From Chloroflexota bacterium (GTDB taxonomy: Bacteria; Chloroflexota; UBA11872; VXOZ01): a stretch of DNA of 33,513 nt. The stretch covers positions 1 to 33,513 of the forward strand of contig JAJEAH010000004.1 of the NCBI GenBank assembly GCA_022824225.1, written 5' to 3'. Position 1 is the first letter of the stretch; the number at the start of each line of letters is the position of its first letter. The notes under the pieces are model-generated. The model was not told where the DNA came from. It saw only the letters and a list, made by a program, of their open reading frames with translations, and did no database searches. This document shows, piece after piece, positions 6,576 through 33,513 of this stretch. The translations under genes and the position numbers were made by a program.

Positions 6576-6785
6576 GTGTTTAGCTGGCGCTGCGCGTCCT
6601 CAGTGTGCCGCCGTCCCAGCAAGAATCTTGGCACGCCGTGATTGCCCATCTCCTACGAGCATAGAGGACGAGCAGGCAAGGAAACAAGGCGGGCTTGCCT
6701 GGCGCGGCGACGGACCCGCGGCGGGTCAGGTTGAGGAAAAACGGCCCGCGCTGATGGTCTCAGAGCGGCGCATCCCCACCCCAAC
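6576..6785. other. Intergenic region between mnmG and the repeat array
   Basis: No gene is supported here. It is the upstream region of mnmG on the minus strand and grades into the repeat array at 6786. I see no convincing -10/-35 pair or riboswitch. Confidence 0.5.
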
Positions 6786-6900
6786 CGTTCGCCCTGAGCC
6801 GGTCGAAGGGCCAACCCACCGCCCCAACTGCTCGCCCTGAGCCGGTCGAAGGGCACACCCACCACCCCAGCCGTTCGCCCTGAGCCTGTCGAAGGGCGCC
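6786..6900 (-). repeat. 43-bp tandem repeats, inverted relative of the array at 1-272
   Basis: Three cores of the form GTTCGCCCTGAGCCGGTCGA start at 6787, 6830 and 6873. They are the reverse complement of the core at 1-272. The linker has the same C/A-rich composition but is two bases shorter, giving a period of 43. It sits just downstream of thiE (end 6922, minus strand). The sequence GCCCT...AGGGC in each core can form a five-base stem. Confidence 0.85.
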
Positions 6901-6921
6901 CCGGCTGCGGCGCCCATGGGC

Positions 6922-7560
6922 CTATTCCCCCACAATAGCGCGCAGTTCCCGCGCGGCGGCGGCTACGTCGGGCGCAGCCACCACCGACGAGACCACCGCG
7001 ATGCCGTCCGCGCCCGCCGCAAGCACGGCCGCCGCATTCTGCGCCGTAATGCCGCCGATACCCACCAGCGGCACGTGGGGCGCGGCCTGCCGGAGCGTGC
7101 GGACCATTGCGGGACCCACGGGAGGTCCGGCATCGCGCTTGGTGTGGGTCGCGTACATAGGGCCAACTCCCAGGTAGTCCGGTTTGGCCGGAAGCGCGGC
7201 CTGCAATTCAGGGATGTTCCCCGCGGACATGCCGATGATGGCGTGCTCTCCCAGAATCTCACGGGCCGCGGCGGGGGGCAGGTCGTCGTGGCCGAGGTGC
7301 ACGCCGTCCGCACCCGCGGCGCGGGCCGCGTCCACGCGGTCGTTCACGATGCACGGGATGCCCGCAGCGCGGCAAAGTTCGGCAACGGCTTGGGCCGTTG
7401 CCAGAAAGGCGCGGTCGGTGGACTGCTTATCGCGCAGTTGGAGCATGGTCGCGCCGCCGGCAATAGCCCAGCGGGCTACGTCCACCACCGGCCGGCCGCC
7501 GGCAACGGCCGGATCCAGCACAACATAGAGGCGCAGGGCGCGGGAGAGGGATCGTGTCAT
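6922..7560 (-). CDS. thiE: Thiamine-phosphate synthase
   Basis: ThiE joins the pyrimidine diphosphate (HMP-PP) with the thiazole phosphate to make thiamine phosphate in the cytoplasm. The 212 residues and TIM-barrel layout are standard. Motifs seen: QLRDK (41-45) for the diphosphate, VNDR (72-75), GVHLGHDDLP (86-95), GVGPMYATHTK (131-141) with the conserved Thr-x-Thr-Lys, and GIGGI near the C terminus. No other thi gene is adjacent. I searched the leader (7561-7800, minus strand) for the conserved TPP riboswitch blocks and found none. It is transcribed divergently from parA. Confidence 0.95.
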   Translation of the reverse strand: MTRSLSRALRLYVVLDPAVAGGRPVVDVARWAIAGGATMLQLRDKQSTDRAFLATAQAVAELCRAAGIPCIVNDRVDAARAAGADGVHLGHDDLPPAAAREILGEHAIIGMSAGNIPELQAALPAKPDYLGVGPMYATHTKRDAGPPVGPAMVRTLRQAAPHVPLVGIGGITAQNAAAVLAAGADGIAVVSSVVAAPDVAAAARELRAIVGE

Positions 7561-7783
7561 GGTGTGGAATGGCGGCTTGCGGGACCGGCGTGCCGTAGGC
7601 TCACGCTGGCGGGCTTCGTGCGCGCTACTGGGCGCCGGGACAACGCGGCGCGAGAGCAGGCTGCGCGCCCGTTTCGGCGCACCCCCGCCGGGTTGGGCCG
7701 CTAAGAATCGAGCTCCGCATATTGCGCTGCCGCCGCGATATCTACAAGAATGTCAGTCAATCGGTTATTTGTGGGGGTATAGG

Positions 7784-7792
7784 TGGTATGAT
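7784..7792 (+). promoter_or_regulatory. Extended -10 promoter for parA-ftsZ
   Basis: TGGTATGAT has the extended -10 form (TG-n-TATGAT). It lies 25 bases before the ATG at 7818 and in the AT-richest part of the gap. The sequence around 7764-7769 (GTTATT) is a poor -35 match, as is common for extended -10 promoters. Assigned by pattern only. Confidence 0.5.
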
Positions 7793-7817
7793 ACACTACT
7801 GGGATGGAGCGCACTCC

Positions 7818-8624
7818 ATGTCCCTGGCAAGCAGCAAAGCGGAAGTAATGGCTCTCGTTATCGCCTGCGCAAACCAAAAGGGTGGTGTTGGCAAGACGAC
7901 GACGACTGCGAATTTGGGTGCCACGCTCGCGCAGATGGGCAAGCGCATACTGGCGATAGACATGGATGCACAAGCTAATCTGACCGCCCACTTCGGTCTG
8001 GAGCGAGAGCTCGAGTCCACGGTCGCCGGCGCGTTGCGGGACCGCGAGGGCGAACTACCCGTCTACCGGGTGGAAGACGACGCGGGCATGGTGATCGACA
8101 TTGTGCCGGCGTCGCTGGAGTTGGCCAGCGTCGAATTCCAGCTCGCCGCCGTTATCGGCCGCGAGTTGCGCTTGCGGGACCGGCTGGAACGCGTGCGCGA
8201 CAACTATGACTTCGTCCTAATCGACACACCCCCTTCTCTTGGTCTGCTCACGGTCAATGCGCTCGTGGCCGCGGACTGTGTCATAATCCCAACTGAGGCG
8301 CGGTTCTTCTCATTGCAGGGCCTGTACATGTTGCAGGAGACCATCTCCGAAGCGTCGGCCCTTAATCCTGGTATTGAAATCTTGGGGGTATTGCTGAGCA
8401 AGTACGACCGCAGATTGCGGGAGGAAAAAGCCGTCTGGCAATACCTGCACGAACGCTGGGGGGACCGGGTATTCGAGACGGAGATTGGCATTAACAGCAA
8501 GATTTTGGAAGCGGCGTCTGCGGGGGTTCCCGTTAGCGCGTATACTGGCGGCAAGAAAGCCACCACTGCATATCAGTTGCTAGCCAGAGAGGTATTAGAC
8601 CGTGTCGAAGCGGCCCGGCTTTGA
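7818..8624 (+). CDS. parA: ParA/Soj-family ATPase
   Basis: This 268-residue ParA-type ATPase belongs to a family that positions chromosomes or other cargo by ATP-driven dimerisation on DNA. It has the deviant Walker A KGGVGKTTT (residues 21-29), the Walker A' DMDAQANLT stretch and Walker B VLIDTPPS. The start is taken at 7818, preceded at a workable distance by GGAG; the ATG at 7848 (MALVIACANQKGG) also gives a normal ParA N terminus. The end overlaps ftsZ by 23 bases and there is no parB beside it. Both facts suggest a division-related role (compare MipZ, a ParA relative that positions FtsZ), but Soj-like segregation is equally possible from sequence alone. Confidence 0.9.
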   Translation: MSLASSKAEVMALVIACANQKGGVGKTTTTANLGATLAQMGKRILAIDMDAQANLTAHFGLERELESTVAGALRDREGELPVYRVEDDAGMVIDIVPASLELASVEFQLAAVIGRELRLRDRLERVRDNYDFVLIDTPPSLGLLTVNALVAADCVIIPTEARFFSLQGLYMLQETISEASALNPGIEILGVLLSKYDRRLREEKAVWQYLHERWGDRVFETEIGINSKILEAASAGVPVSAYTGGKKATTAYQLLAREVLDRVEAARL

Positions 8625-9813
8625 TCCCGACCGGTTGGAAAAGGTGAATGACACGAATCGCCCCCGCCCGGTGGTTCAGGATATCGTTACGCCCGGGACT
8701 GCGTCCCGCGATGAGAGCGGGCTCATTCAGATTCGCATAATCGGCGTGGGCGGCTGCGGCGGCAACGCCGTGAACCGCATGATCGAATCCGGTGTGGCCG
8801 GCGCTACCTACGGCGTTATCAATACGGACGCCCAGGCGCTGCAATTCTCCCGCGCGGAGGAAAAACTTGCCATCGGGGCCCGTATGACGCGGCTGCGGGG
8901 CACCGGCGGCGATCCTGAATTGGGCAGGAAGTCAGCGGAAGAAAACGCGCAGGAAATCGAGCAAATGGTCAGCGGCGCCGACATGGTGTTCGTTACGGCC
9001 GGGTTGGGCGGCGGCACGGGAACCGGCGCCACGCCTCTGGTCACTGAGATTGCCAAGCGGCAAGGCGCGCTCACGGTCTGCGTGGTCACGCTGCCGTTCT
9101 TGTTCGAAGGCAGACCCCGCCAACGGCACGCCGTCGCCGGCTTGGAAGAACTGCAGGGCCACGTGGACACGTTGATCGTCATCCACAACGACCGCTTGCT
9201 CGCGGCCGTGCCTCCTTCGGCCCCAATCAAAGAAGCGTTTGCGCTGGCTGACGAGATGCTGGTGAACGGCGTCAAGTCCATCACGGAATTGGTTACCACG
9301 ACGGGTATCATCAACGTGGACTTTGCCGACGTCCGCTCAGTCATGCAGGACGCGGGCACCGCCATGATGGGCATCGGCATCGGCTCCGGCGACCGGCGCA
9401 TGTTGGCAGCGGTGGAGGAAGCGATCAAAGACCCCCTCTCGGACCGGCCCATGAAAGGCGCCCGGGGCGTGCTGCTCAACTTCCGCGGCGGTCCCGATAT
9501 GTCTATTCAGGAGATCAGCGCGGCGGCGGAAGTGGTGAGCGCCGCGGTGGACCGCGAGGCCAACATCATCTTCGGCGCCACTATCGATCCGGCCAACCAG
9601 GAAGAGGTGCAGGTCACCCTCATCGCCACCGGCTTGCCCGGCGAGCAAGTCCAGCGCGCCGGACGGCCCCGGGCGGAACAGAAGAAGGCGCCCGACAGGT
9701 CGCCGGCGGATGAACCGGCGGATAGATTCGCGGACGATCCGGCGGTGGAAGAAGTGGAAGTCGAAGACCTCGACCTCCCGCCATTCCTGCGCCGCCGTCG
9801 CCGGGGCCGCTAG
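8602..9813 (+). CDS. ftsZ: Cell division GTPase FtsZ
   Basis: FtsZ is the tubulin-like GTPase that forms the division ring. In 403 residues it has GVGGCGGNA (48-56), the tubulin signature GGGTGTG (136-142), PFLFEGRPR, and the T7 loop NVDFAD (238-243) with the catalytic aspartate. After an acidic linker it ends in DLDLPPFLRRRRRGR, a good match to the C-terminal peptide that binds FtsA, SepF or ZipA-type partners. The GTG at 8602 is preferred because AGAGAGG lies nine bases upstream, inside parA. The GTG at 8644 would shorten the 40-residue N-terminal extension but has a weaker ribosome site. Translational coupling with parA is likely. No ftsA or ftsQ is next to it. Confidence 0.97.
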   Translation: MSKRPGFDPDRLEKVNDTNRPRPVVQDIVTPGTASRDESGLIQIRIIGVGGCGGNAVNRMIESGVAGATYGVINTDAQALQFSRAEEKLAIGARMTRLRGTGGDPELGRKSAEENAQEIEQMVSGADMVFVTAGLGGGTGTGATPLVTEIAKRQGALTVCVVTLPFLFEGRPRQRHAVAGLEELQGHVDTLIVIHNDRLLAAVPPSAPIKEAFALADEMLVNGVKSITELVTTTGIINVDFADVRSVMQDAGTAMMGIGIGSGDRRMLAAVEEAIKDPLSDRPMKGARGVLLNFRGGPDMSIQEISAAAEVVSAAVDREANIIFGATIDPANQEEVQVTLIATGLPGEQVQRAGRPRAEQKKAPDRSPADEPADRFADDPAVEEVEVEDLDLPPFLRRRRRGR

Positions 9814-9814
9814 A

Positions 9815-9870
9815 CCAAGCCGCCGCTGCCTTTGGCTTGGCGGAACCAGCCACTGTCGATGGATGGCTGG
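9815..9870 (+). terminator. Two consecutive hairpins after ftsZ
   Basis: CCAAGCC (9815-9821) pairs with GGCTTGG (9834-9840), and CCAGCCA (9846-9852) pairs with TGGCTGG (9864-9870). Both 7-base stems are perfect. Neither is followed by a T-run, so intrinsic termination is uncertain; they may instead protect the 3' end. Nothing else was found up to 10052. Confidence 0.4.
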
Positions 9871-10052
9871 CAGCCCCCACCGTAGGCTGCATCCAGCAGT
9901 CCAGCCGAAGCCCTGCCCCGGCTCGCCTCTCCCGTGATTGCCGCAACGCCGCGCGCGGCAAACGCCAGGCCCGCTGCCACCGGACTCGCCTCGTCTCAAC
10001 CCGTGCCACTTGCCCCAGCGACCGCCTAGGGCAGACTCCCCCTACAAGCGTG

Positions 10053-10856
10053 CTATGAACCGGGTTTCCTCGCCCGGATAGAGAACATCTGCGGGATGGA
10101 GTCGTTGTTTTCCGGGAAGCGCCACCAGCCATCTGCGCCCTGCACCATCGCGGGCAGCGCCTGGTAGTGGCAGTAGGGAAACTCGTGCAGAAATTCGAGC
10201 CGGAGACCCGCGTGTACCAGGGCGGTCACGATTTCACCCAGGCTGTGCTGCCATTCATAGTTGGGACTCGGAATCCGCTCAGCGCCGGCATACGTGTGCT
10301 CGCCGCCGGGAATGAATAGCTCCTGGCGAAAATAGCTATACACCGGGAGGGCGTCACCGCGCGCGGTGGGTTCATACGTTGTCAAGACCGGATGGAATTC
10401 CACCAGGTAGAACACGCCGCCCGGCCTGAGATGACGACTGATCACCTCGGCCCAGCGGTCGAGGTCGGGCAGCCAGACCAAGACGCCATACGACGTAAAC
10501 ACAATATCGAATTCTTCATCCAGGACCCCCGGCAGGTCGTAGACATTGGCGCAGATGAAACGCGCTTCCGCGCCGACTTCTTCGTTCAGCCCACGAGCCA
10601 AGTCGATTGCCGCATTTGAAAAATCAACGCCCGTTGCCCGCGCCCCCAGCCGCGCCCACGACATGGTGTCCAGCCCGAAGTGGCATTGCAGATGCAACAG
10701 CGACTTGCCGGCAACGTCACCGACTTCCGCGCGTTCGATGTCTTTGAGCGTGTTGCGGCCCGCCTTGAAACCGGCCACGTCATAGAACGCTGAGTCCGCG
10801 TGAACCGGCGTTCGCTCGTTCCAGTTGGCGCGGTTCGTTTCAAGCCGTCTATCCAT
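10053..10856 (-). CDS. Class I SAM-dependent methyltransferase
   Basis: A 267-residue predicted methyltransferase of unknown substrate. The SAM-binding fold is shown by LLHLQCHFGLDTMSWARLG followed by VDFS, then FICANVYDLP and FDIVFTSYGVLVWLPDL, the usual motif I to post-motif III order. The C-terminal part has NYEWQHSLGEIVTAL and many aromatic residues, as in small-molecule methyltransferases of the UbiE/Methyltransf_11/25 group. The ATG at 10856 is chosen because GAGGCG precedes it at normal spacing; an upstream in-frame start at 10910 lacks support. It stands alone on the minus strand. The methyl acceptor cannot be inferred. Confidence 0.88.
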   Translation of the reverse strand: MDRRLETNRANWNERTPVHADSAFYDVAGFKAGRNTLKDIERAEVGDVAGKSLLHLQCHFGLDTMSWARLGARATGVDFSNAAIDLARGLNEEVGAEARFICANVYDLPGVLDEEFDIVFTSYGVLVWLPDLDRWAEVISRHLRPGGVFYLVEFHPVLTTYEPTARGDALPVYSYFRQELFIPGGEHTYAGAERIPSPNYEWQHSLGEIVTALVHAGLRLEFLHEFPYCHYQALPAMVQGADGWWRFPENNDSIPQMFSIRARKPGS

Positions 10857-10950
10857 AGAAAACGCCTCAGGGGTAAGTTCCCACGTGTGCGGCAAGCACA
10901 ACTGGGGCAAGATGCAAGCTACCGCTTGATACTACCCTGCGTAGACTCTT

Positions 10951-11076
10951 TATGTCATTTCCGAGCGGAGCGTCGAACCTCGTTCGCGGGATCTAGAGCC
11001 CTGGGTCTACCGGTACCTGTGCCCCTGGGACTCCAGATTCCTCACTGTGCCGCGCTCCGTTTCGGAATGACATATG
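10951..11076. repeat. Inverted-repeat element, TGTCATTCCGAGCGGAGCG type
   Basis: The ends are near mirror images. TATGTCATTTCCGAGCGGAG on the left matches the reverse complement of the right end, which reads CGCTCCGTTTCGGAATGACA and then TATG. The centre contains GATCTAGAG and CCAGATTCC, the same arms found in the element at 15208-15290. It has no ORF and looks like a small non-autonomous palindromic repeat (MITE- or REP-like). It fills most of the gap between the methyltransferase and the dehydrogenase. Confidence 0.75.
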
Positions 11077-11229
11077 CACAAGGCTTGCCAGTCGCTTTGC
11101 GCCCCAGTTCCTTCCGTCGGGTCAGGCAAGCGGGAGCCTGACACGTGCCGCGCCGGCGCAGAGGCGCTGCAAGCATTTCCTCTACGCCGCGGGCCGCCGA
11201 CAGACGAAGCGCTGAGCGCGGCGCTCCCT

Positions 11230-12195
11230 CTACGTCACGATATTCTGCGGGCGGCCTTCCAGGAAGGCGATGACGTTGGAGACCACGCCTTCGTTTAGCA
11301 ACTCCACCCCCTCCGGGGTCTGGTCGGCAACATGGGGTGTCAGCACCACCTGCTCGCACGCCAGCAGGGGATGGTCCGGCGGCAGCGGCTCATGCTCGAA
11401 CACGTCGAGGCCCGCGCCGGCGAGGTGGTCGGACTGCAACGCCTCGATCAGGGCGGGGGTATCCACCAGTTCGCCGCGCCCGGCATTGATGAAGAGCGCG
11501 CCCGGCTTCATCAGACCGAATTCCCGCGCGCCGATGATGTGGCGACTCTCGTCACTGAGCCGGACGTGGAGACTGATAACGTCCGACTGCCGCAGGAGCG
11601 CATCCAGATCGACAAACTCAACCCCAAGCTCCCGCGCCCGCTCCGGCGAGGGATTGAACGTCCAGGCCAGGCAGCGCATGCCGAGCAAGTTGGCAAGGCG
11701 CGCGACCTCGCGTCCCACGTTGCCGGTACCGACCACGCCCAGGGTCTTGCCCTGCAGCATGACGTTCTGCTTTAGTGTCCAGCGTCCGGCTTTGAGTTCG
11801 CTTGTCTGAAACGCGGCGCGCTTGGCTGCGGCGAACATGAGGCCGAGGATGTGTTCGGCCACCACCGGCGCGGTGCGGCCCGGCTGGTTGGCCACGGCCA
11901 CGCCGCAAGCGCTCGCCGCCGCAACGTCAATGGAATCGACGCCGATGGAACACGTGGCGATGAGGCGCAGGTCCGGCAAGGCCTGGAGCGCAGGCGCAAA
12001 CCACTTGACGGCGCCGCGCGTATTCAGGATGACGTGCGCGCCCGCCGCGCGCCGGAGCTGCTCCTCCATGCTCTGCGGGCGGTCAAGATAGAGGTCCAGG
12101 TCGCCGTAGGGCTTGAGGCGGTCGAGGTGCGGCGAACCCTGGATCTGGGGCGGATCGTCGCCGGGGACGACGAATTTCAGTCGTTCTTGTGCCAT
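11230..12195 (-). CDS. D-isomer-specific 2-hydroxyacid dehydrogenase
   Basis: This 321-residue NAD(P)-dependent oxidoreductase interconverts a 2-hydroxyacid and a 2-oxoacid. The nucleotide-binding motif GTGNVG is at 156-161. The catalytic triad is Arg240 (INAGRGELVD), Glu269 (AGLDVFEHEP) and His288 (VVLTPHVADQT), positioned much as in SerA. The second beta strand of the cofactor domain ends in WTFNPSP, with no acidic residue where NAD-specific members have Asp, so NADP use is possible. Length without a regulatory domain fits glyoxylate, hydroxypyruvate or similar reductases. The ATG at 12195 is preceded by AAGGA at seven bases; longer starts add low-complexity residues. The substrate is unknown. 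Confidence 0.93.
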   Translation of the reverse strand: MAQERLKFVVPGDDPPQIQGSPHLDRLKPYGDLDLYLDRPQSMEEQLRRAAGAHVILNTRGAVKWFAPALQALPDLRLIATCSIGVDSIDVAAASACGVAVANQPGRTAPVVAEHILGLMFAAAKRAAFQTSELKAGRWTLKQNVMLQGKTLGVVGTGNVGREVARLANLLGMRCLAWTFNPSPERARELGVEFVDLDALLRQSDVISLHVRLSDESRHIIGAREFGLMKPGALFINAGRGELVDTPALIEALQSDHLAGAGLDVFEHEPLPPDHPLLACEQVVLTPHVADQTPEGVELLNEGVVSNVIAFLEGRPQNIVT

Positions 12196-13156
12196 ACGTG
12201 CGTCCTTGGTTGGGTGGCTGCTCGAGCTGGATTCTGCGCTGCTCGCGGAGCGAACGGGATGCGCAGGCGCGCGACCATATTTCTTGTGCAAGTCTTTGAG
12301 ATTAAAGGTAGTTGACTACGAGCTTGCACGCAATCGCGTCGGCTGCGCAAGCCAGGTTCGCCCTGAGCGCGTCGACTAGCTCAGCACGGGCTTGTCGCAG
12401 GGCGATTGGCACTGCCGAGTGTAAGCGAATAGCCGTCCACGCAGCGACAAGCGCTGCGCGCAGCCGGCTCCGCGCAGCCACTCAGCACGAACGAGTTTAG
12501 CGGCGCTCCGGACTCTCTCACAGCCTGATCACAATCGGCTTGATTGCACGAACGCCGTTCGCCCTCATGTATTGGCAGAGAAGGATAGAATGCGGACAGG
12601 CAGGGCAGAGCGGTTGGCCTTGGGTCTGCAAGACCGTAGCTCAGAGAGGTCGTCACGCCTGCCGAGGTGCCCCAAAGCCCGAAAAGCTACCCGGACACAG
12701 GGTCCGCATGCGTAAGGCTGCGACTGCGGGGGAGCGCCATCCCGTAGTATAGCAGGAGGGCGAAGAAGGCATGGTGCGGGCGGCGGCACAGTGCCGCGCT
12801 CCAGCGCCAGCTTGGGCTGCTGGACCGGAACTCCCGCGCCTGTCTCTAACCGGCCACATTGGTGGCAACGCGCTGCAACCCAGTGCTACACGTCTTCGCT
12901 GCCCGGCTGTGCGCAGCGGGTAAGCCCAAGCAGGCCGCGCTCACCGCCTGCATGCCCAAGCCGCTCTCCAGTCTCAACAGCGCGGTGGGCACGCAATCAG
13001 GGTGGCAGCCAACCACTGCCCCATGGCAGCCAGGACAGTTTCTGAGCTTGGTCGAAGGATGAACGGAAGCGGGCGGTGAATGCGCGGTCTCTGACCTGCG
13101 CTCCCGTGGTCAAGCTCCTCGCCTGCGTCCCGTTCACCCTTCGACAGGCTCAGGGC
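12196..13156. other. Gene-free gap with scattered repeat remnants
   Basis: No credible gene was found. Between about 12356 and 12500 there are broken copies of the window's repeat core (for example CAGCACGGGCTTGTCGCAG near 12380). From 12500 to 13130 open frames exist in several phases but have no family resemblance, ribosome site or codon signal. A small hairpin GGTCT-gca-AGACC near 12626 resembles a tRNA arm, but no full cloverleaf can be drawn. Confidence 0.6.
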
Positions 13157-13470
13157 GAACGGGACGGTGGGCAGTACGGATTAAGGGACGAACGGGACAG
13201 CGGACACTACGGGATAGGGGGTGAACGGGACGGTGGACACAACGGGATAGTGAGTGAACGGGACGGCGGACACAACGGGATAGTGAGTAAACGGAACGGC
13301 GGACACAACGGGATAGTGAGTAAACGGAACGGCGGGCAATACGGGATTGTAGGTGAACGGGACGGAGAGCAGTTTGGCATGGCGGGTAGTTTGGAATGTC
13401 GGGAGAACGGGATGATGGGCAGTATGGGTTTGGGGGGCAAATAGGACGGTGGGCAGTTTGGCATGGCGGA
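13137..13470 (+). repeat. 33-bp minisatellite seeded by a repeat core
   Basis: A core TTCGACAGGCTCAGGGCGAA (from about 13140) runs directly into 33-bp units starting at 13157, 13190, 13223, 13256, 13289, 13322 and 13355. Seventeen extra bases follow, then two more units at 13405 and 13438. Units resemble GAACGGGACGGTGGACACAA plus 13 further bases. Units 3 to 6 are almost identical and the outer ones more decayed, as in recent central expansion. Because 33 is a multiple of three, both strands read as 11-residue repeats. There is no start context or non-repeat domain, so I do not call a protein. Confidence 0.88.
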
Positions 13471-13701
13471 CAGCGCGGGATGATTGGGTAATTGGGTGCA
13501 GTCTCGGTCATACAACCTTTGCCCTGCGCGGCAGGGCTGCGGCCGGTCGCCGCGACGTTGCACCGCGCTGCCCAGGCATGGGCCGCATCCCATGAATCCG
13601 TCGTCTCTGCTATAGTTTCAGTGTCTCCTCATTCACTAGTAGCGCCTGCCCATTGTTGAGCCATCTCCGCAATCGTGACTTCGTCCTCTCCATTCAGGTT
13701 G

Positions 13702-13707
13702 TATAAT
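13702..13707 (+). promoter_or_regulatory. -10 element for fabF
   Basis: A perfect TATAAT at 13702-13707 lies 81 bases before the fabF start, in a region otherwise GC-rich. The best upstream hexamer (GTGACT, 13675-13680) is spaced too far at 21 bases, so the -35 is unclear. Confidence 0.5.
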
Positions 13708-13787
13708 CTCGTAGGGCGCGGCGCGTTCCGCGCACACGTGAGACAACCCATTCAGCAACCACGCCGCACACAGCCAAGAGGTATCGC

Positions 13788-24659: not shown

Positions 24660-25640
24660 TCACAGCCGGGAGACGTACCGTTCCTCACCCAGGATGCCTT
24701 TGGGTCGGAAGAGCAGCATCAGCACGAGCAGCGTTTCTATCAGCAGAAAACGGACGTGGGGCGCGCGGGAGTTGAACTCGTGCGGCACCAGCGCGTCGGT
24801 GGCGAACTGCGAGCCCGCCCAGATCGCCCAGAATACGAACGCCCCCAGGATTGCGCCTTTCGTGTTGCCGCTGCCGCCCAGGATCAGCATCACCCACACG
24901 ATGAACGTGCCAAAGACCGGTTCGAAGACGCCGGGGCTGATGGTACCGGCGTTGTGGGCGTACAGCGCGCCGCCGACGCCCATCACCATGGCGCCGAGCA
25001 CCAGCGCCTGCAGCTTGAAGGCAAAGACGTTCTTGCCGTAGGCGGCCGCCACCACCTCATCTTCCCGGATGGACCGCAACACACGTCCCCACGGCGAGCG
25101 GAGCAAGCGCTCCAGCAAGACTGCAACCACGGCCAGCGTCAGGACCACAATGCCCAGGTACACGTAGTTGTAGTATTCGGGCGCCACCTGATCGTAGAAG
25201 GGCCGCGGGATGCCCACCAGGCCCTTGGAGCCGTTCGCCAGCCACTCCTCGTTGTTGAACACCAGCCGGATGCTCTCGGCGATGCCGATGGTGGCGATTG
25301 CCAGGTAGTCCTCGCGCAAGCGCAGTGTGGGAATGCCGATCAGCAAAGCCACGAGCCCGCACACCGCAGCCGCGGCAATCACGCCCACCAGAAACGGCTG
25401 GTCCAGGCCCAGCGCCTGCTGTGTGTAGACCGCAAGCTCGCCCGTGGGCAAGGGCTTTGTGACCAACGCCGCGGTGTACGCGCCGATGGCGAAGAAGCCG
25501 GCAATGCCGAAGTTGATAAGACCGGTGCCGCCGAAGTGCACGTTCAGGCCCAACGAAAAGAGGGCGTAGATGCCGGCAACGATCAGAAAGCCGATGAGGT
25601 AGTTGAGTATGCCGGATGTCAGGATGGCCTCGATTGTCAT
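24660..25640 (-). CDS. livM: Branched-chain amino acid ABC transporter permease LivM
   Basis: One of two membrane subunits of a HAAT-family importer, which takes up branched-chain amino acids or, in many bacteria, amides, urea or aromatic acids. The 326 residues have about eight to ten membrane segments. LivM features include GGTGLINFGIAGFFAIGAY near the N terminus, the cytoplasmic coupling stretch SPWGRVLRSIREDEVVAAAYGKN, and a C-terminal FRPKGILGEERY. The ATG at 25640 is 74 bases after livH. Substrate cannot be told without the binding protein. Confidence 0.95.
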   Translation of the reverse strand: MTIEAILTSGILNYLIGFLIVAGIYALFSLGLNVHFGGTGLINFGIAGFFAIGAYTAALVTKPLPTGELAVYTQQALGLDQPFLVGVIAAAAVCGLVALLIGIPTLRLREDYLAIATIGIAESIRLVFNNEEWLANGSKGLVGIPRPFYDQVAPEYYNYVYLGIVVLTLAVVAVLLERLLRSPWGRVLRSIREDEVVAAAYGKNVFAFKLQALVLGAMVMGVGGALYAHNAGTISPGVFEPVFGTFIVWVMLILGGSGNTKGAILGAFVFWAIWAGSQFATDALVPHEFNSRAPHVRFLLIETLLVLMLLFRPKGILGEERYVSRL

Positions 25641-25714
25641 GGTGCTCTTCGCGCTCCCGGCGCGCCGCCTGTCCGCATTGCGTCCATCTCTCGTGTGTCC
25701 CGCGTGCCCAGCGG

Positions 25715-26632
25715 CTAGAACCCCCTCTGCTCGCTGCCCAGAATGCCCTGGGGCCGGATGAGCAGCACGAGTATCAGGATGACGAAGGCTACGGCGGGCT
25801 TGTATGTAGGCAAGAGAAACGCCGTGGACACCTGCTGCACGATGCCGATGGTCATGCCGCCGACCAGCGCGCCGTAGGGATTGCCGATGCCGCCCAGGAT
25901 AGCCGCGGCAAAGAGCGGCAAGAGCAGGTTCCAGCCCATTTCCGGCCGCAGTTGCGCATCGATGCCCAGCAAGATGCCCGCCGTGGCCGCCATGGCCGCG
26001 CCGATGGCCCAGGTCCAGACCATCATGCGCTCCGTGTCGATGCCGCTAATGCGGGCCAAGTCCGGGTTGTCCGCCGTGGCCCGCAGCGCCTGCCCCAGCC
26101 TGGAGCGCCGCAGGAAGAGGTAGAGACCCGCCACCATAGAAAGGCACGCCGCCATGATGAAGATCTGGTCCGGCTTGACCCGAATCTCGTACGGCAGTTG
26201 CAGCGCCGGTCGCAGGGCTTGCGTGAAGAAGTGAAACTCCGGCCCCCAGATGATGAACAGCAGCGCCCGCAGCGCAAAGGCGGCCGCCAGCGAGCCGATG
26301 ACGAACATGACTGGGGCGTACTGCCGCCGGCGCATGGGACGGAACACGAGCCGATCGACGATGACGGCCACGACCGCGGTGGCCAGCATGGCCAGCGGCA
26401 GCGCCAGCAGCATGGGCAGGCCGAACGAGAGCGGCCCAAACGTCGCCGCCGGCAGATCCAGCGCGGCAAAGACCGTGTTCACGCAGAAGAACGCCACGTA
26501 CGCGCCCACGGCCATCAAGTCGCCGTGGGCAAAGTTGGCAAAGCGCACAATGCCGTAGACCAATGTCAGGCTCACTGCTCCCAGGGAGAGTATGCTGCCC
26601 AGAATGATGCCGTCGACTACCAAGGCAATCAC
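25715..26632 (-). CDS. livH: Branched-chain amino acid ABC transporter permease LivH
   Basis: The partner membrane subunit, 305 residues. It has GAVSLTLVYGIVRFANFAHGDLMAVGAY at the N terminus, the coupling region SRLGQALRATADNPDLARISGID, and LLIRPQGILG near the end, all LivH-like. The start is a GTG at 26632 with GGGAGG six bases upstream. It lies 208 bases after livF, and that gap holds three palindromic hairpins. livH-livM may therefore be expressed less than, or separately from, livG-livF. Confidence 0.95.
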   Translation of the reverse strand: MIALVVDGIILGSILSLGAVSLTLVYGIVRFANFAHGDLMAVGAYVAFFCVNTVFAALDLPAATFGPLSFGLPMLLALPLAMLATAVVAVIVDRLVFRPMRRRQYAPVMFVIGSLAAAFALRALLFIIWGPEFHFFTQALRPALQLPYEIRVKPDQIFIMAACLSMVAGLYLFLRRSRLGQALRATADNPDLARISGIDTERMMVWTWAIGAAMAATAGILLGIDAQLRPEMGWNLLLPLFAAAILGGIGNPYGALVGGMTIGIVQQVSTAFLLPTYKPAVAFVILILVLLIRPQGILGSEQRGF

Positions 26633-26691
26633 GCCGTGCCTCCCAGGAGTTTCCCGTGTCGGGATACGGGGCAGATTCTACTCAACCCCTG

Positions 26692-26829
26692 CCCCCTTGA
26701 CGGGGGAAAGCCGGGATGGGGGTGAAAGGGGCGGTCGGCACGCAATTGGAAACGGTAAACGCGCCGCTGGATTCCGGCGTTCGCCGGAATGACGGGGTGG
26801 CTCAGATGGATTCCGGCTTTCGCTGAAGT
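26692..26829. repeat. Three REP-like hairpins between livF and livH
   Basis: CCCCC-ttgac-GGGGG (26692-26706), a perfect ATTCCGGC-gttc-GCCGGAAT (26771-26790) and a decayed relative ATTCCGGC-tttc-GCTGAAGT (26810-26829). The second belongs to a palindromic repeat common in many bacterial genomes. On the transcribed strand they fall between livF and livH and could stop or process the message. Confidence 0.75.
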
Positions 26830-26840
26830 GACGGAGTGAT

Positions 26841-27551
26841 TCAAAGGTCTCCTCCCAGGTAGAGCCGGGCGATTTCCTTGTTTGCCAGCAGCGCGCTGCT
26901 GGCGTCCGTATAGCGGTTCTCCCCGTCGGCCAGCACGTAGCCGCGCCGGGCGTGTTCCAGCGCCATGCGCGCGTTTTGCTCCACCATGAGCACGGCAATG
27001 CCCTGGGCGTTCACGTGGGCAATCCGCTTGAAGACCGTCTCCACGAACACGGGGGCCAGACCCGCCGTCGGCTCGTCCAGCATCAGAAGTTGCGGCTTCA
27101 ACATGAGCGCCCGGGCCATGGCGACCATCTGGCGCTGGCCGCCGCTCAACGCCGACACTTTCGTGCCCCGGCGGTCCTTGAGATCGGGAAACAGGTCGTA
27201 GACCATCGCCGACTGGGCCGCGATCGTGTCGGAGCGCAGAAACGCGCCCATGGCCAGGTTCTCCTGCACCGTCAGGCTCAGGAACGTGTTATCCGCCTGG
27301 GGCACGTAGCTCAAGCCTTGGCCGACGATGGCATGGGGCGGCTGTCCCGTGATGTCGGCGCCCCGGAACGTGACCGTGCCCGCGGTGGGCGTGAGCAAGC
27401 CGAAGATGGTCTTCATGAGGGTGGACTTGCCGCAGCCGTTGGGACCGATGATGGCCACCACTTCGCCCGCTCCCACGCTCAGGGAAACGCCGTGCAGGAT
27501 TTCCAGGTCGCCGTAGCCGGAGACGATGCCGGCTGCTTCCAACACGTTCAC
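26841..27551 (-). CDS. livF: Branched-chain amino acid ABC transporter ATPase LivF
   Basis: This 236-residue ATPase subunit has Walker A GPNGCGKST, signature LSGGQRQMVAMARAL, Walker B LLMLDEPTAGL and the following EQNARMAL H-loop region, where histidine is replaced as usual in LivF (VEQN). Length and the YVPQADNTF Q-loop stretch also fit LivF. The GTG start at 27551 overlaps the livG TGA by four bases (GTGA), so translation is coupled. Confidence 0.95.
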   Translation of the reverse strand: MNVLEAAGIVSGYGDLEILHGVSLSVGAGEVVAIIGPNGCGKSTLMKTIFGLLTPTAGTVTFRGADITGQPPHAIVGQGLSYVPQADNTFLSLTVQENLAMGAFLRSDTIAAQSAMVYDLFPDLKDRRGTKVSALSGGQRQMVAMARALMLKPQLLMLDEPTAGLAPVFVETVFKRIAHVNAQGIAVLMVEQNARMALEHARRGYVLADGENRYTDASSALLANKEIARLYLGGDL

Positions 27552-28384
27552 CGGTTCTGGCCTCCCAGGTACGCTGCCAGCACCTGCTCGTTCTGCTGGA
27601 TTTCAGCGGGTGTGCCCTCCGCCAGCTTCTCGCCGTTGCTCATCACGATCACGGGATCGCATATGCCCATCACCACCGCCATATTGTGCTCGATGAGCAG
27701 GACCGTAATGCCCCGTTCGCTGACCAGCCGCTCGATTTGCCGCATGAGGCTGTTCAAGAGCGATGGATTCACGCCCGCGCCCGGTTCATCCAGCATGATG
27801 AGGCGCGGGTCCGTCATCATGGCGCGGGCAAGCTCCAGCAGCTTCTTCTGGCCGGTGGAGAGATTGGCCGCATATTCGTCCCGCAGGTGGGCCAGACTCA
27901 CGAACTCCAACACGTCCAGCGCCTTGGCGTAGGCAGCGCGCTCTTGCTTGCGAATCTGCCACGGCACGAACCAGGCCGCGCCCAGGCGTTCGCCCACCTG
28001 GCCGGTGGGCACGAGCAGGAGGTTCTCCAGCACCGTCATCTGCTTGAGTTCCTTGGGCACTTGAAAGGTGCGGCAGAGACCGCGGCGGAAGACCCGGTGC
28101 GGCGGCAGGCCGTCGATGCGCGTGCCCTGGAAGATGATGCGGCCGGTGTCCGGCGGGTGGAATCCGGAGATGAGGTTGAATAGGGTGGTCTTGCCCGCGC
28201 CATTGGGCCCGATGAGGCCCGTGATGGCGCCCGGGCGCACCTGCAGCGAGCAGTTGTGCACCGCGTATAGGCCGCCGAACGTCTTGGTGACGTTCGCAAT
28301 TTCCAGCAACGGCTGTGGGGTCTCACCGGCCACGGTCCGCTTCCACCTTGGCTTGCCGCGCACGGGCGCCGGCCTGTTTGACAT
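27548..28384 (-). CDS. livG: Branched-chain amino acid ABC transporter ATPase LivG
   Basis: This 278-residue ATPase subunit has Walker A GPNGAGKTT, the LivG-type FHPPDTGRIIFQG, signature LSTGQKKLLELARAM and Walker B LIMLDEPGAGVNP, with IEHNM at the H-loop. The first 25 residues are basic and Pro-rich; the ATG at 28384 is kept, with GAGG close before it. It is the first gene of the livG-F-H-M group. TATTAT lies about 20 bases upstream and could be a -10, which would leave a very short leader. No periplasmic binding-protein gene is adjacent on either side. Confidence 0.93.
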   Translation of the reverse strand: MSNRPAPVRGKPRWKRTVAGETPQPLLEIANVTKTFGGLYAVHNCSLQVRPGAITGLIGPNGAGKTTLFNLISGFHPPDTGRIIFQGTRIDGLPPHRVFRRGLCRTFQVPKELKQMTVLENLLLVPTGQVGERLGAAWFVPWQIRKQERAAYAKALDVLEFVSLAHLRDEYAANLSTGQKKLLELARAMMTDPRLIMLDEPGAGVNPSLLNSLMRQIERLVSERGITVLLIEHNMAVVMGICDPVIVMSNGEKLAEGTPAEIQQNEQVLAAYLGGQNR

Positions 28385-28776
28385 GCGCCTCTATAATACT
28401 GCACTGGCGCACCGTCCGGGCAGGTGGGGTGGTGAGTGGGTTCTGGGTTAAAGGGTCCGGGCGCTGCCACGCGTGCCAGCGGTGCTGCGACGGGGCTCAG
28501 CACGGATGGAAAGAGCAGGCGTCGTTGTGAGTCGCGTGCCCCGGGCTTGAGCACGTTTCTGGACTCTCCTGGAACTTCCCACGTGCTGCGACGGACTTGA
28601 CACGGGCTTGTCGCAGTGCCGAAGCGCAAACGGACGATGTGCCACGGAGATAGGCAGCATCAGCACAAGCGGCGCAGCAGATTCCAGACATTTGGCCTGG
28701 GCACGAGTGGATTTCGGGCAAGCTATGATAGGTGGAAGATACCGCAGACACTGAGCACCAAGAGGAGTATTGCCCG
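28385..28776. other. Divergent intergenic region, livG to the RraA-like gene
   Basis: No gene was seen. Two hairpins are visible: GTGCTG...CAGCAC (28482-28503) and CTGCGAC...GTCGCAG (28586-28616). Both are variants of the local repeat core (GGGCTTGTCGCAG). The ribosome site of the RraA-like gene (AGAGGAG, 28761-28767) closes the region. Confidence 0.5.
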
Positions 28777-29448
28777 ATGTCAACCGGTTCCCCCAGTGAT
28801 CCGTTTCTCGACCGCCTGCAGCACGTCTACGTGGCCGTGGTTTCCGACGCGCTGGACGCCCTGGGCCTGCGGCACCAGGTGATGGCGCCCCGGATGCGGC
28901 CGCTCTACCCGGAGGCGCGCATCGTGGGGCGCGCACACCCCATTCACTTCCGGCCGGCGGAGCGCGTGCCCTCGCAGGCGGAGTACCACGCTATGGAGAT
29001 CGAAGCCATGGACAGCCTGCGGCCCGGTGAAGTGTACGTCGCCGCGCTGGACGATGCGCCGCCGTGCGCCCTGTGGGGCGAGTTGTTTTCCACCTGCGCC
29101 CAGGCGCGGGGCGCGACGGGCGCGGTGATCGACGGTCCCGTGCGCGATAGCGGCATGATCATCGCCAAGCCGTATCCGGTTTTCGCCGCGGCCTTCTGCG
29201 CCGCCGACGCCGCGGGCCGCGCCGAGGCCATCGCCCACAACGTGCCCATCACGTGCGGCGGCGTGCTGGTGCACCCCGGTGACTACATCTTGGCGGAATA
29301 TGACGGCGTGGTGGTCATCCCCCAGCGGCATATCGAAGAGGTGCTGCAACCGGCGGAAGCCAAGGTGCGGGGCGAGAACACCGTCCGCGCCGAACTCGCC
29401 GCCGGGGAGGCCATGCGCGCGGTCTTCAGCCGCCACGGCATTCTGTAG
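28777..29448 (+). CDS. RraA-like protein / HMG-type aldolase family
   Basis: A 223-residue member of the RraA family. Relatives include 4-hydroxy-4-methyl-2-oxoglutarate aldolases, oxaloacetate decarboxylases and the E. coli RNase E regulator. Features are VSDALDALG near the N terminus, WGELFSTCAQARGATGAVIDG followed by PVRD (the Asp and Arg that hold the metal and oxoacid in the aldolases), and a C-terminal DGVVVIPQRHIEEVL. The start is fixed by AGAGGAG nine bases before the ATG. In a neighbourhood of transport and oxoacid genes a catabolic aldolase or decarboxylase is more likely than RNase E control, but the substrate is unknown. Confidence 0.88.
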   Translation: MSTGSPSDPFLDRLQHVYVAVVSDALDALGLRHQVMAPRMRPLYPEARIVGRAHPIHFRPAERVPSQAEYHAMEIEAMDSLRPGEVYVAALDDAPPCALWGELFSTCAQARGATGAVIDGPVRDSGMIIAKPYPVFAAAFCAADAAGRAEAIAHNVPITCGGVLVHPGDYILAEYDGVVVIPQRHIEEVLQPAEAKVRGENTVRAELAAGEAMRAVFSRHGIL

Positions 29449-29488: not shown

Positions 29489-29580
29489 GCCTGAGCCGTT
29501 TGCCCTTCGACTCAGCTCAGGGCGAACGGCTCAGGCACGAGACCGTCGGTTTTGGGTCATCTACGCGCCGTTTGCGCTTC
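29489..29580. repeat. Long inverted repeat with conserved 3' arm, copy 1
   Basis: GCCTGAGCCGTTTGCCCT (29489-29506) pairs with AGGGCGAACGGCTCAGGC (29519-29536), an 18-base stem with one wobble. Next comes an arm reading GAGACCGTCGGTTTTGGGTC then ATCTACGC. The same stem and arm recur at 33219 and 33427. Confidence 0.8.
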
Positions 29581-29590
29581 GACAGAGCCT

Positions 29591-29642
29591 GTGCTGAGCT
29601 TGCCTGCCCTGAGCCTGTCGCAGGACCGAAGTGGCTCAGCAC
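29591..29642. repeat. Perfect 9-bp inverted repeat enclosing a core variant
   Basis: GTGCTGAGC (29591-29599) pairs with GCTCAGCAC (29634-29642). The interior contains CCTG-tcg-CAGG and a CCCTGAGCCTGTCG core. It sits between the convergent RraA-like and ComA genes and may serve as a two-way terminator. No gene was found in 29643-29870. Confidence 0.6.
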
Positions 29643-29870: not shown

Positions 29871-30680
29871 CTAGTCCTGGGGCCAGGTGCCGGCCAGCGC
29901 GCGCTTCAGCGTATCGCCGCGCATGCCGCAGCGCAGCGCTTCCAGCGCCAGGATGTCGTCCGGAGGGATATTGCCCAGGTTGACGTTCGGCCCAAACTCG
30001 AGGATGAGCCACTGCTGCTGGTTCTTGATGGGGGCTTCCCAGATGAGGTCGTCCACGTTGTTGATTCCGCCCAGGATTTCCGCCACCATGTCGGACTGCA
30101 CGTCGCCGCCGGCATCGAAGATGCCGACGCCGTGGCCGGACTCCCGCGCTTCCACAATCACCTTGTGCGCGCCTTCCGCCAGGTCGCTGGCGATCTGTTC
30201 GTGCATGGTGGTGGTCTCGATCGCGTCTTTCGGGTCTTTCTTGCCCACCTCGGTGAGCACCTTGAAGCCGGCGTCCTTGGCGCGCCTTATGATGTCGCTG
30301 CGGGTGGCCGCGTCCATCTCGATGGTGCCGTCGGAGACCTCGATGGTGCTGAAGCCCAGTTCCTTGGCGCGGGCAACGTAGGCCGGCAGCTTGCCCTGGG
30401 CCACCGCCGCTTCCAGAAACGTGCCGCCGGGATAGATGTCCACACCGGCCGCCTCGACCAGCGCGATCTTTTCGCGGAGCACCGCTTCATCGTAGAACGC
30501 CGACGTGCCGAACGTGAGCTTGAGCGAATCGATCACATGATTCGCCATGCGCATCAAATCGGTCGTGGCGTGCAGGCCGAGCCCCTTATCCAGCACCATG
30601 GTGTAGCCCGTGGCGCGCGGTTTGTCCTGGACCCGGCTGCGCACCGGCGGATCGACAATTCCTTCCCAAGCCTGTGGCAT
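29871..30680 (-). CDS. comA: ComA-type phosphosulfolactate synthase
   Basis: This family adds sulfite to phosphoenolpyruvate to make (2R)-phospho-3-sulfolactate, the first step to coenzyme M in methanogens and to sulfolactate in Bacillus spores. The 269-residue protein has the family pattern KPRATGYTMVLDKGLG (20-35). It continues with LKLTFGTSAFY, DIYPGGTFLE, FSTIEVSDGTIEM, VLTEVGKKD and WLILEFGPNVNLGNIP, all placed as in a TIM-barrel ComA. The ATG at 30680 has GAGAGGAAAG before it; the longer open frame upstream is atypical. It follows the HprK-like gene by 177 bases on the same strand. comB and comC homologues were not recognised nearby. Plant HSA32 proteins share this fold, so the activity is probable rather than proven. 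Confidence 0.88.
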   Translation of the reverse strand: MPQAWEGIVDPPVRSRVQDKPRATGYTMVLDKGLGLHATTDLMRMANHVIDSLKLTFGTSAFYDEAVLREKIALVEAAGVDIYPGGTFLEAAVAQGKLPAYVARAKELGFSTIEVSDGTIEMDAATRSDIIRRAKDAGFKVLTEVGKKDPKDAIETTTMHEQIASDLAEGAHKVIVEARESGHGVGIFDAGGDVQSDMVAEILGGINNVDDLIWEAPIKNQQQWLILEFGPNVNLGNIPPDDILALEALRCGMRGDTLKRALAGTWPQD

Positions 30681-30857
30681 GTGCTTTCCTCTCTCTTGCG
30701 TTGTGAATGCGTTGTGCTCTTGGCTGTACGTTCGGATTAAGTGCGGCGGGCAACCTACCCGCGCGGGTCGGCGCAATAGAATCCCGCTGTTATTGGATTC
30801 CCAGTGGCGAGCCGCGCGTCCGGGTTGCGCAGCGCCGCGCCGCCACAACGCTGCGTT

Positions 30858-31898
30858 CTAGAGCCCTTCCATGCAGTTGTGGGTGCCCGCCAGGATGTCC
30901 TTGGCGCGGAGGATGATGTCGCCGTGCTCGTGCACCAGGCGGCGCATGCCGTCCCAGCGTTTGGCGGCGATGTCCGGGGCGTCGGCGCCCGGCAGCGGGA
31001 TGCGGTCGTAGAGCAGGGCCGAGCCGCCAATCTTCTCGGACGCGTTGTCATAGAGCAGCTTCACCATCTTCGGCCCGGGCGCCACGTCGGAAACCACCGC
31101 GGCCTCCCGGCCTGATTCGATCTTGGGGAAGAGCAATGAGAGCCTGGGGTTGACGATTTCGTCGGCCTCCGGGGCCACCGGCGCCAGGTCCACGGCCAGT
31201 TTGTGCGCCCAGACGTTCTCCACGGCGGGCAGGTCCAGGCCCAGCCGTTCCGCCACGTCGGGAAAATCGTGGACGAAATTCCCCTGGCGGATATTGTCCA
31301 CCAACGAACCCTTGTGGAAGACCACGTCGTCGCCGCGAAACTCCAGGTGGGTCATTTCGGTGCTGTACACCTGGTAGCCGCGCCGCAGCCCTTCCAGCAG
31401 GAAGACCGTCTTGCCCGCGCCCGCGCCGCCCACCACCAGCATGAGTTCATTGCGGTCGGGGAGGTACATGGCGGAGGCGTGGAAGCTGAAGATGCCGTAG
31501 CGCCGCTCCAGCAACGCTAAGGCAAAGCGGAAGAACAGGCCCAAGTTGCCGAAGAGCGAACAGCGCCGGTCTGAGCACGCCGCCTCCAGCGCGCTGAAGT
31601 CCGCCGCGGCAAAGACCTCGTCCGTGCCAAGCCGGACGGACGGCGGCGCCCCGGGCAGGTCCAAGATGTACATGCGCCCGTCCAGGGGCTCGGCAAACGG
31701 GACTTCGGGCACGGCCAGCACGTTGGTAACCAGCGACTGGATGACGGTGCGGCTGGTGAAGAACTCCGGGTTGCTGATCAGCGCGGCGTTATTGGAGATC
31801 AACCCGAACCGCGCCCGGAGGATACCCACGGCCCGCCGGGCCATGCCGCCGTTCACGGGTCCGGTCGCAGTTGTTTCGGGCAGGCGCTCTACAGCCAT
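30858..31898 (-). CDS. HprK-like P-loop protein
   Basis: A 346-residue protein whose middle resembles the catalytic domain of HPr kinase/phosphorylase. SFHASAM (138-144) corresponds to the SIHG strand, the P-loop GGAGAGKT (157-164) is followed by a helix and RRGYQVYSTEMTHLEF (172-187). In HprK the last stretch carries an Asp-Asp pair (VADD) needed for metal and catalysis; here it reads S-T-E. The first 120 residues and the C-terminal 100 residues match nothing I recognise. The start at 31898 lacks a clear ribosome site; ATG at 31844 is an alternative. No HPr is nearby. Upstream of comA on one strand, it may regulate or act on the sulfolactate pathway; that is inference. Confidence 0.7.
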   Translation of the reverse strand: MAVERLPETTATGPVNGGMARRAVGILRARFGLISNNAALISNPEFFTSRTVIQSLVTNVLAVPEVPFAEPLDGRMYILDLPGAPPSVRLGTDEVFAAADFSALEAACSDRRCSLFGNLGLFFRFALALLERRYGIFSFHASAMYLPDRNELMLVVGGAGAGKTVFLLEGLRRGYQVYSTEMTHLEFRGDDVVFHKGSLVDNIRQGNFVHDFPDVAERLGLDLPAVENVWAHKLAVDLAPVAPEADEIVNPRLSLLFPKIESGREAAVVSDVAPGPKMVKLLYDNASEKIGGSALLYDRIPLPGADAPDIAAKRWDGMRRLVHEHGDIILRAKDILAGTHNCMEGL

Positions 31899-33022: not shown

Positions 33023-33115
33023 GTTGCGCGGGCCCCCCAATGGTGTCGCGCGGCTTCCCCCCATGGTGTCGCATTGAGGGCCGGGCCTGAGCCGTTTTGA
33101 AGACTGTGCCGTTCT

Positions 33116-33218
33116 AGTGCCTGTGCCTGCGCCGCTCTAGTGCCTGTGCCTGCGCCGTTCTAGTGCCAGCACCTGAGCCCTTCTAATGCCCGCGCCTGAT
33201 CCGTTCTAAAGCCCGCGC
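33116..33218 (+). repeat. 23-bp minisatellite, first block
   Basis: Units of 23 bp similar to GCCTGTGCCTGCGCCGTTCT plus AGT run in tandem up to the inverted repeat at 33219, with at least four full units. The unit's end (CTGATCCGTTC) grades into the left arm of that inverted repeat, so the array was seeded from it or the reverse. Confidence 0.8.
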
Positions 33219-33303
33219 GCCTGATCCGTTCGCCCTGAGCCAAGTCGAAGGGTGAATGGATCAGGCACAAGCGCGAGATCGTCGATTTTGAGCCATCTAC
33301 GCC
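33219..33303. repeat. Long inverted repeat with conserved 3' arm, copy 2
   Basis: GCCTGATCCGTTCGCCCT (33219-33236) pairs with AGGGTGAATGGATCAGGC (33249-33266), with two wobble-type differences. The 3' arm is GCGAGATCGTCGATTTTGAG then CCATCTACGCC. The loop contains GAGCCAAGTCGA, a core variant. Confidence 0.85.
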
Positions 33304-33332
33304 CCGCTTGCGCCTGTGCTGAGCCTGCCCAC

Positions 33333-33426
33333 ACCTGCGCCGTTCTAGTGCCCGCGCCTGCGCCGTTCTAATGCCCGCGCCTGCGCCCCTCTAGAGCCTG
33401 CGCCTGATCCGTACTAATGCCCGCGC
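33333..33426 (+). repeat. 23-bp minisatellite, second block
   Basis: Four or so further 23-bp units (GCCCGCGCCTGCGCCGTTCT plus AAT type) again run into an inverted repeat at 33427. Together with the preceding block this makes two composite minisatellite-plus-palindrome copies in a row. Confidence 0.8.
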
Positions 33427-33513
33427 GCCTGATCCGTTCGCCCTGAGCCAAGTCGAAGGGTGAACGGATCAGGCGCAGGCGCGAGACCATCGCTTCTGAA
33501 CCTTCTACGCACC
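33427..33513. repeat. Long inverted repeat with conserved 3' arm, copy 3 (reaches window end)
   Basis: GCCTGATCCGTTCGCCCT (33427-33444) pairs with AGGGTGAACGGATCAGGC (33457-33474), one wobble-type difference. The 3' arm GCGAGACCATCGCTTCTGAA then CCTTCTACGC is the most diverged of the three copies. Confidence 0.85.

Follow-up and report, generated by a model that had tools for sequence, protein, structure and literature searches.

A conserved HprK-like and ComA gene pair in Chloroflexota as a candidate module for sulfolactate breakdown

The stretch of Chloroflexota DNA analysed here (the window, 33,513 nt) carries a gene for a homologue of the phosphosulfolactate synthase ComA beside a gene for a P-loop protein of an unnamed family, and raises the question of whether the two proteins work together and, if so, in which direction ComA would act.

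The gene pair within the window

The first-pass annotation had placed the ComA homologue directly downstream of the P-loop protein on the same strand, and reading-frame analysis of the window confirmed both genes there, on the minus strand (Table 1). The ComA frame is open from 30848, and the ATG at 30680 was chosen as the most likely true start because a ribosome-binding site, GAGAGGAAAG, is located just upstream.

Downstream of ComA and on the same strand is a set of Liv-type ABC transporter genes encoding two permeases and two ATPases (24660–28384), with an RraA-like gene on the plus strand (28732–29448) lying between these genes and ComA. Short repeats with CTCAGGGCGAACGG-like and GGATCAGGCGC-like motifs are present around the gene block (about 29490–29640 and 33090–33513), and low-complexity ORFs on another contig of the window genome (C73, L125) resemble translations of similar repeats.

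Table 1. Positions of the gene pair and of its sequence motifs within the window
Feature	Position	Strand	Basis
HprK-like P-loop protein, 346 aa	30858–31898	minus	open frame, family alignment, profile match to HprK-like proteins
S-F-H-A motif, residues 138–141 of the HprK-like protein, before the P-loop	31476–31487	minus	10/10 invariant; aligns with the HprK-like HASA
P-loop GGAGAGKTV, residues 157–165 of the HprK-like protein	31404–31430	minus	alignment of 10 relatives
S-T-E-M, residues 179–182, at the place of the HprK A-D-D stretch; Glu181 invariant	31353–31364	minus	family alignment and profile comparison
177-nt intergenic gap with likely ComA ribosome-binding site (about 30684–30693)	30681–30857	minus	sequence
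ComA, phosphosulfolactate synthase homologue, 269 aa	29871–30680	minus	PF02679 and TIGR03849 scores; 1QWG/1U83 alignments
ComA R-E-S-G-x-G-x-G segment, residues 179–186	30123–30146	minus	residue comparison of ComAs

The P-loop protein and its relation to HprK

No Pfam or NCBIfam model matched the P-loop protein above its cut-off, and searches of the PDB with the single sequence and with the family profile returned nothing relevant. A match to PF07475 (HprK) was also absent from the window genome at E 0.001. In profile–profile comparison, a profile of the 10-member family gave a 96% probability for a match to a set of HprK-like proteins from Chloroflexota, across 70 columns that span the HASA motif, the P-loop and the next strand. 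The HprK core layout described in the first-pass annotation therefore holds at the level of profiles, with no counterpart among Pfam or NCBIfam models above cut-off or among PDB entries. By these comparisons the protein is likely a distant relation of the HprK core and, by score, not a member of PF07475.

Across the 10 relatives, the P-loop residues G157 and G160-A161-G162-K163-T164-V165 are invariant, as are F139-H140-A141, E181-M182, H184, K196-G197, D201-N202, R204, K233, N250-P251, F257-P258, I260-E261 and N285-A286 together with E288. The stretch equivalent to the HprK VADD motif had been read as S-T-E, which agrees with the alignment. Because the Ala-Asp-Asp of HprK is aligned with Ser-Thr-Glu, the second acidic position is kept, as a glutamate, and the first is lost. 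The Asp-Asp pair corresponds to Thr180-Glu181, the glutamate being invariant in 10/10 relatives, and the earlier description of a lost Asp-Asp motif is correct for the first aspartate but not for the second. A structure model of the protein failed, at a pLDDT of 31.6, with a shallow input alignment whose sequences were 82–85% identical to the query. Searches of plasmid and viral contigs found no relatives of the HprK-like protein.

Identity of the ComA homologue

The window ComA scored 311.7 bits against PF02679 and 338.9 bits against TIGR03849, the NCBI equivalog model for archaeal ComA (cut-off 280), and could be aligned with 1QWG and 1U83, two relatives of solved structure. It keeps the residues that archaeal, Bacillus and Xcb ComAs all share. 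Five ComAs linked to an HprK-like gene, one per independent locus, pass TIGR03849 with 286–339 bits against the cut-off of 280, the four besides the window copy scoring 286–335 bits. In contrast, ComA-family paralogues without an HprK-like partner fail the same model (ComA2, 166 bits; a Tct-linked copy, 172; two copies on contig C105 of genome G120, 158 and 178). The HprK-linked, archaeal, Bacillus and Xcb ComAs all have R179, S181, G184 and G186 together, a combination that the ComA2, Tct-linked and C105 paralogues lack. In a tree from which HSA32 sequences were left out, the window ComA branched with ComA and Xcb-type proteins; together with the equivalog score, this placement gives no reason to set it aside as HSA32-like, a possibility that the first-pass annotation had raised.

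The HprK-linked ComAs form one group with those of two further Chloroflexota genomes, G199 and G298 (support 99/98), within which support is weak (90/83) for where exactly the G199/G298 pair belongs. These two closest other relatives sit in clusters for coenzyme M synthesis of the Xcb type. XcbD passes its model in both genomes (624.5 and 679.7 bits for G199 and G298, cut-off 600), and G199 also has XcbC- and XcbE-like genes that score below their cut-offs. Where this ComA branch makes coenzyme M it thus adjoins the next-step lyases, and no Xcb genes were seen among the annotated neighbours of the HprK-linked ComAs. According to PMC11507031, coenzyme M genes of this kind had been known from no organisms other than methanogens and aerobic bacteria that use alkenes; the Chloroflexota examples beside Xcb-type genes are at 5244–9945 of locus L087 (G199) and 9947–13757 of locus L088 (G298).

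ComB (PF04029) is absent from the whole 3.37-Mb window genome, extending to genome scale what had been noted for the locus, and is also absent from 6/6 genomes of the window's genus and from genome G197, which carries the pair in another class. Genome G120 of that class contains one ComB, located apart from the pair. Several Ldh_2 genes, the family of ComC, are found elsewhere in the window genome.

A second, diverged ComA (ComA2, about 36% identical) is encoded on contig C24 of the window genome (L036, 7107–13534), amid genes for a DegT aminotransferase, an epimerase, an amidohydrolase, an AP_endonuc_2-type protein and a sulfatase. Because of these surroundings and of its score (166 bits, cut-off 280), it was set aside as an alternative ComA. 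Five genomes of the genus contain ComA2, L037 being the counterpart in a sister species. G120 is rich in ComA-family genes (L089, L090; C105, C110), three of which share a stretch of about 13 kb, and one of which immediately follows TctC-TctB-TctA.

Conservation and linkage of the pair

The HprK-like protein is encoded in 6/6 genomes of the window's genus and in 0/35 others of its class, and a close ComA has the same distribution. The two genes are adjacent and co-directional in five of the six members (MAG contigs of the genus: VXOZ01000422, JAAXIC010000025, CATQHC010000006 and JAPPLM010000020), and G038 has both at contig ends. Among 400 genomes sampled from the phylum, the HprK-like family was strongly matched only in the window's genus, in G197 and in G120, the last with three matches. 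The latter two genomes belong to one other class and are the only strong carriers among its 29 genomes, bringing the carriers to three genera in two classes. A close ComA is present in all eight genomes that carry the HprK-like protein. Counted by genus, all three HprK-like carriers (3/3) fall among the five of 224 sampled genera with a close ComA (at least 45% identical), corresponding to a hypergeometric p of about 5e-6, a figure that ignores phylogeny.

The HprK-like protein and ComA occur together more than chance would give, and most loci have the two genes side by side. The first-pass annotation had suggested that the two proteins are functionally linked, and had asked whether the pair extends beyond this genome and co-occurs across Chloroflexota more often than by chance. 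Its conservation in three genera and the co-occurrence value, with phylogeny ignored, answer both questions positively, and conservation and linkage together support the functional link.

Genes adjoining the pair

Key genes of the related loci were read from ORF lists and by tblastn. The gap between the HprK-like and ComA genes, 177 nt in the window, measures 233–430 nt in most of the sister species but shrinks to about zero in G197 and on G120 contig C78. The stop of the HprK-like gene overlaps the start of the ComA gene in G197; on C78, where a gene for a GntR/UTRA regulator lies upstream, about 3 nt separate the two. On G120 contig C25 a single strand encodes TctA, TctC, an HpcH/HpaI aldolase, a 2-hydroxyacid dehydrogenase, LarA, the HprK-like protein, pyruvate kinase and ComA. 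A third G120 contig, C84, carries LarA, pyruvate kinase, ComA, a class II aldolase and ABC transporter genes; further on, on the opposite strand, are an aldehyde dehydrogenase, an alcohol dehydrogenase and the HprK-like gene, about 9 kb from the ComA set. The pyruvate kinase paralogue and the tripartite transporter (TTT) genes adjoin the pair only in G120, and neither was seen among the annotated genes of the window. Beside the pair, no gene for oxidising or exporting sulfite was found.

In four sister species LarA directly follows ComA (about 70 nt where read closely) and is itself followed by an M20-family gene. In a fifth, G040 (L030, about 6121–8996), an insertion of about 1.6 kb interrupts LarA, which may be broken as a result. 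The one sister-species LarA tested scored 509.5 bits against the LarAH5 malate racemase model (cut-off 462). In the window genome, the corresponding LarA (77% identical) and the M20 gene are present on contig C73 and have therefore been moved rather than lost.

A D-2-hydroxyacid dehydrogenase at 11230–12195 of the window, earlier named as a distant candidate for a sulfolactate dehydrogenase, was unconvincing in that role and was rejected as a partner of the pair. It is 18 kb away, has housekeeping neighbours (FtsZ, a methyltransferase and a ketoacyl synthase), and is about 39% identical to the pair-adjacent dehydrogenase of another genus.

A proposed route for sulfolactate breakdown

The HprK-like protein and ComA may form the core of a catabolic module that breaks down sulfolactate, a reading to which a probability of roughly 0.5 is assigned. 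A little short of even odds is given to the specific form of this module, an undescribed, ATP-neutral route that would combine a first, HprK-related sulfolactate kinase with ComA as the C–S splitting enzyme and pyruvate kinase. The activity, substrate and direction given here are inferred. A LarA-type nickel-pincer racemase would interconvert (S)- and (R)-sulfolactate. The HprK-like protein, as a proposed sulfolactate 2-O-kinase with Glu181 and the P-loop probably in its active site, would use ATP to phosphorylate the 2-hydroxyl and yield (R)-2-phospho-3-sulfolactate. ComA, acting in reverse, would convert this phosphosulfolactate to PEP and sulfite by elimination, and pyruvate kinase would turn PEP into pyruvate and regain the ATP, leaving no net ATP cost.

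LarA-family enzymes racemise 2-hydroxyacids, and malate corresponds to sulfolactate with a carboxylate in place of the sulfonate as the sole difference. ComA makes the (R)-phospho form and, to our knowledge, has been characterised only in the synthetic direction. In the SuyAB pathway, conversion of (S)- to (R)-sulfolactate precedes cleavage (PMC12421959), and TTT importers of sulfolactate are known in other bacteria (SlcHFG; PMC5812351). SuyAB is named as the sulfolactate-splitting enzyme in recent literature (PMC12890257, a 2026 review; PMC12421959, 2025). Neither the phrase ‘sulfolactate kinase’ nor such a route was found in the open-licence literature, where absence is weak evidence, and the stem ‘sulfo’ is absent from the main text of the LarA literature searched.

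The pair could instead serve synthesis: ComA would combine PEP with sulfite into phosphosulfolactate, and the HprK-like protein would replace ComB by dephosphorylating this product, as in HprK/P phosphorolysis, before the sulfolactate is exported or converted to another sulfonate. The tight linkage of the two genes and the missing ComB of the window's genus would fit this role, and HprK/P does combine kinase and phosphorylase activities in one active site (PMC9138534). However, the pyruvate kinase encoded in the G120 operon would draw away PEP required for synthesis, the TctA and TctC genes upstream suggest import, a racemase would be unnecessary for making one isomer, and a later biosynthetic step of the Xcb or ComDE type was not seen beside the pair; synthesis is accordingly considered unlikely. 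Somewhat less likely still is a purely regulatory role, in which the HprK-like protein would sense ATP or phosphorylate a protein, either ComA or another, and so control the module rather than act as a metabolic enzyme. Characterised HprK does act on a protein, and the change of the first aspartate to threonine could agree with such a role, but the HprK-like protein keeps to one small set of genes, unlike a global regulator, its gene lies inside a run of enzyme genes on G120 C25, and the two classes share an invariant P-loop along with many further invariant polar residues. The least probable alternative keeps a kinase and a ComA-family lyase and changes the substrate to another 3-substituted 2-hydroxypropanoate, cleaved to PEP with a leaving group that is not sulfite. 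Diverged ComA-family paralogues in other gene contexts (ComA2, Tct-ComA and C105) do exist in these genomes; unlike them, the HprK-linked ComAs pass the equivalog cut-off and keep the R-E-S-G segment.

Breakdown is preferred because synthesis would lose PEP to the operon's own pyruvate kinase and would require ComB or a substitute. The LarA, pyruvate kinase and TTT importer genes suggest a kinase in breakdown rather than a phosphatase or ATP sensor in synthesis, and the phosphatase-replacement and ATP-sensor roles put forward in the first-pass annotation, while possible, are less favoured given these genes. The strongest of these clues, pyruvate kinase and the Tct genes, come from G120 and not from the window genome. 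Also weighing against the module are the extent of the HprK relation, which covers about 70 columns with the first aspartate lost, the presence of the nearest ComA relatives in coenzyme M clusters, the one ComB of G120, the split LarA of G040 and the lack, next to the pair, of a gene for sulfite oxidation or export. The pair is a real, conserved module for which a new role is plausible.

Sulfolactate is a common intermediate of sulfosugar and organosulfonate turnover. If the breakdown reading is true, the kinase and ComA would constitute a second solution to sulfolactate splitting besides SuyAB, ComA would be acting in reverse, and a function would be assigned to an unnamed protein family; the presence of comA in a genome would then not necessarily signal synthesis of coenzyme M or sulfolactate. 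Confirmation would establish a new breakdown route that frees the carbon and sulfur of sulfolactate.

Comparison with known systems

HprK and the HprK-like P-loop kinases share with the protein described here the H-A motif, the P-loop and an acidic residue at the second aspartate position. They differ in having Asp-Asp where Thr-Glu is found here, the alignment covers about 70 columns, and the protein falls below the cut-off of every HprK model (PF07475, TIGR00679). Archaeal ComA (TIGR03849, 1QWG), which functions with ComB and ComC in coenzyme M synthesis, is matched above the equivalog cut-off and in its conserved residues. However, the window's genus and G197 have no ComB, the partners are instead an HprK-like protein and a LarA-type racemase, with pyruvate kinase in G120, and the reverse direction is proposed for the reaction. 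Bacterial coenzyme M synthesis of the Xanthobacter type (XcbB-XcbC-XcbD-XcbE) uses a ComA of the nearest branch, as in G199 and G298, but its ComAs adjoin Xcb lyases whereas the HprK-linked ComAs were seen without Xcb neighbours. The nickel-dependent malate racemases LarAH5 and LarAH6 are the closest parallel for LarA, the sister-species protein passing the LarAH5 model, although sulfolactate is the substrate proposed here. The SuyAB pathway, with racemisation by SlcC/ComC and uptake by SlcHFG, would share with the proposed module the overall conversion of sulfolactate to pyruvate and sulfite, and both its stereo-conversion and its TTT-type uptake have counterparts there. In the proposed module, the place of SuyAB would be taken by phosphorylation, ComA and pyruvate kinase, and that of the dehydrogenase pair by a LarA racemase.
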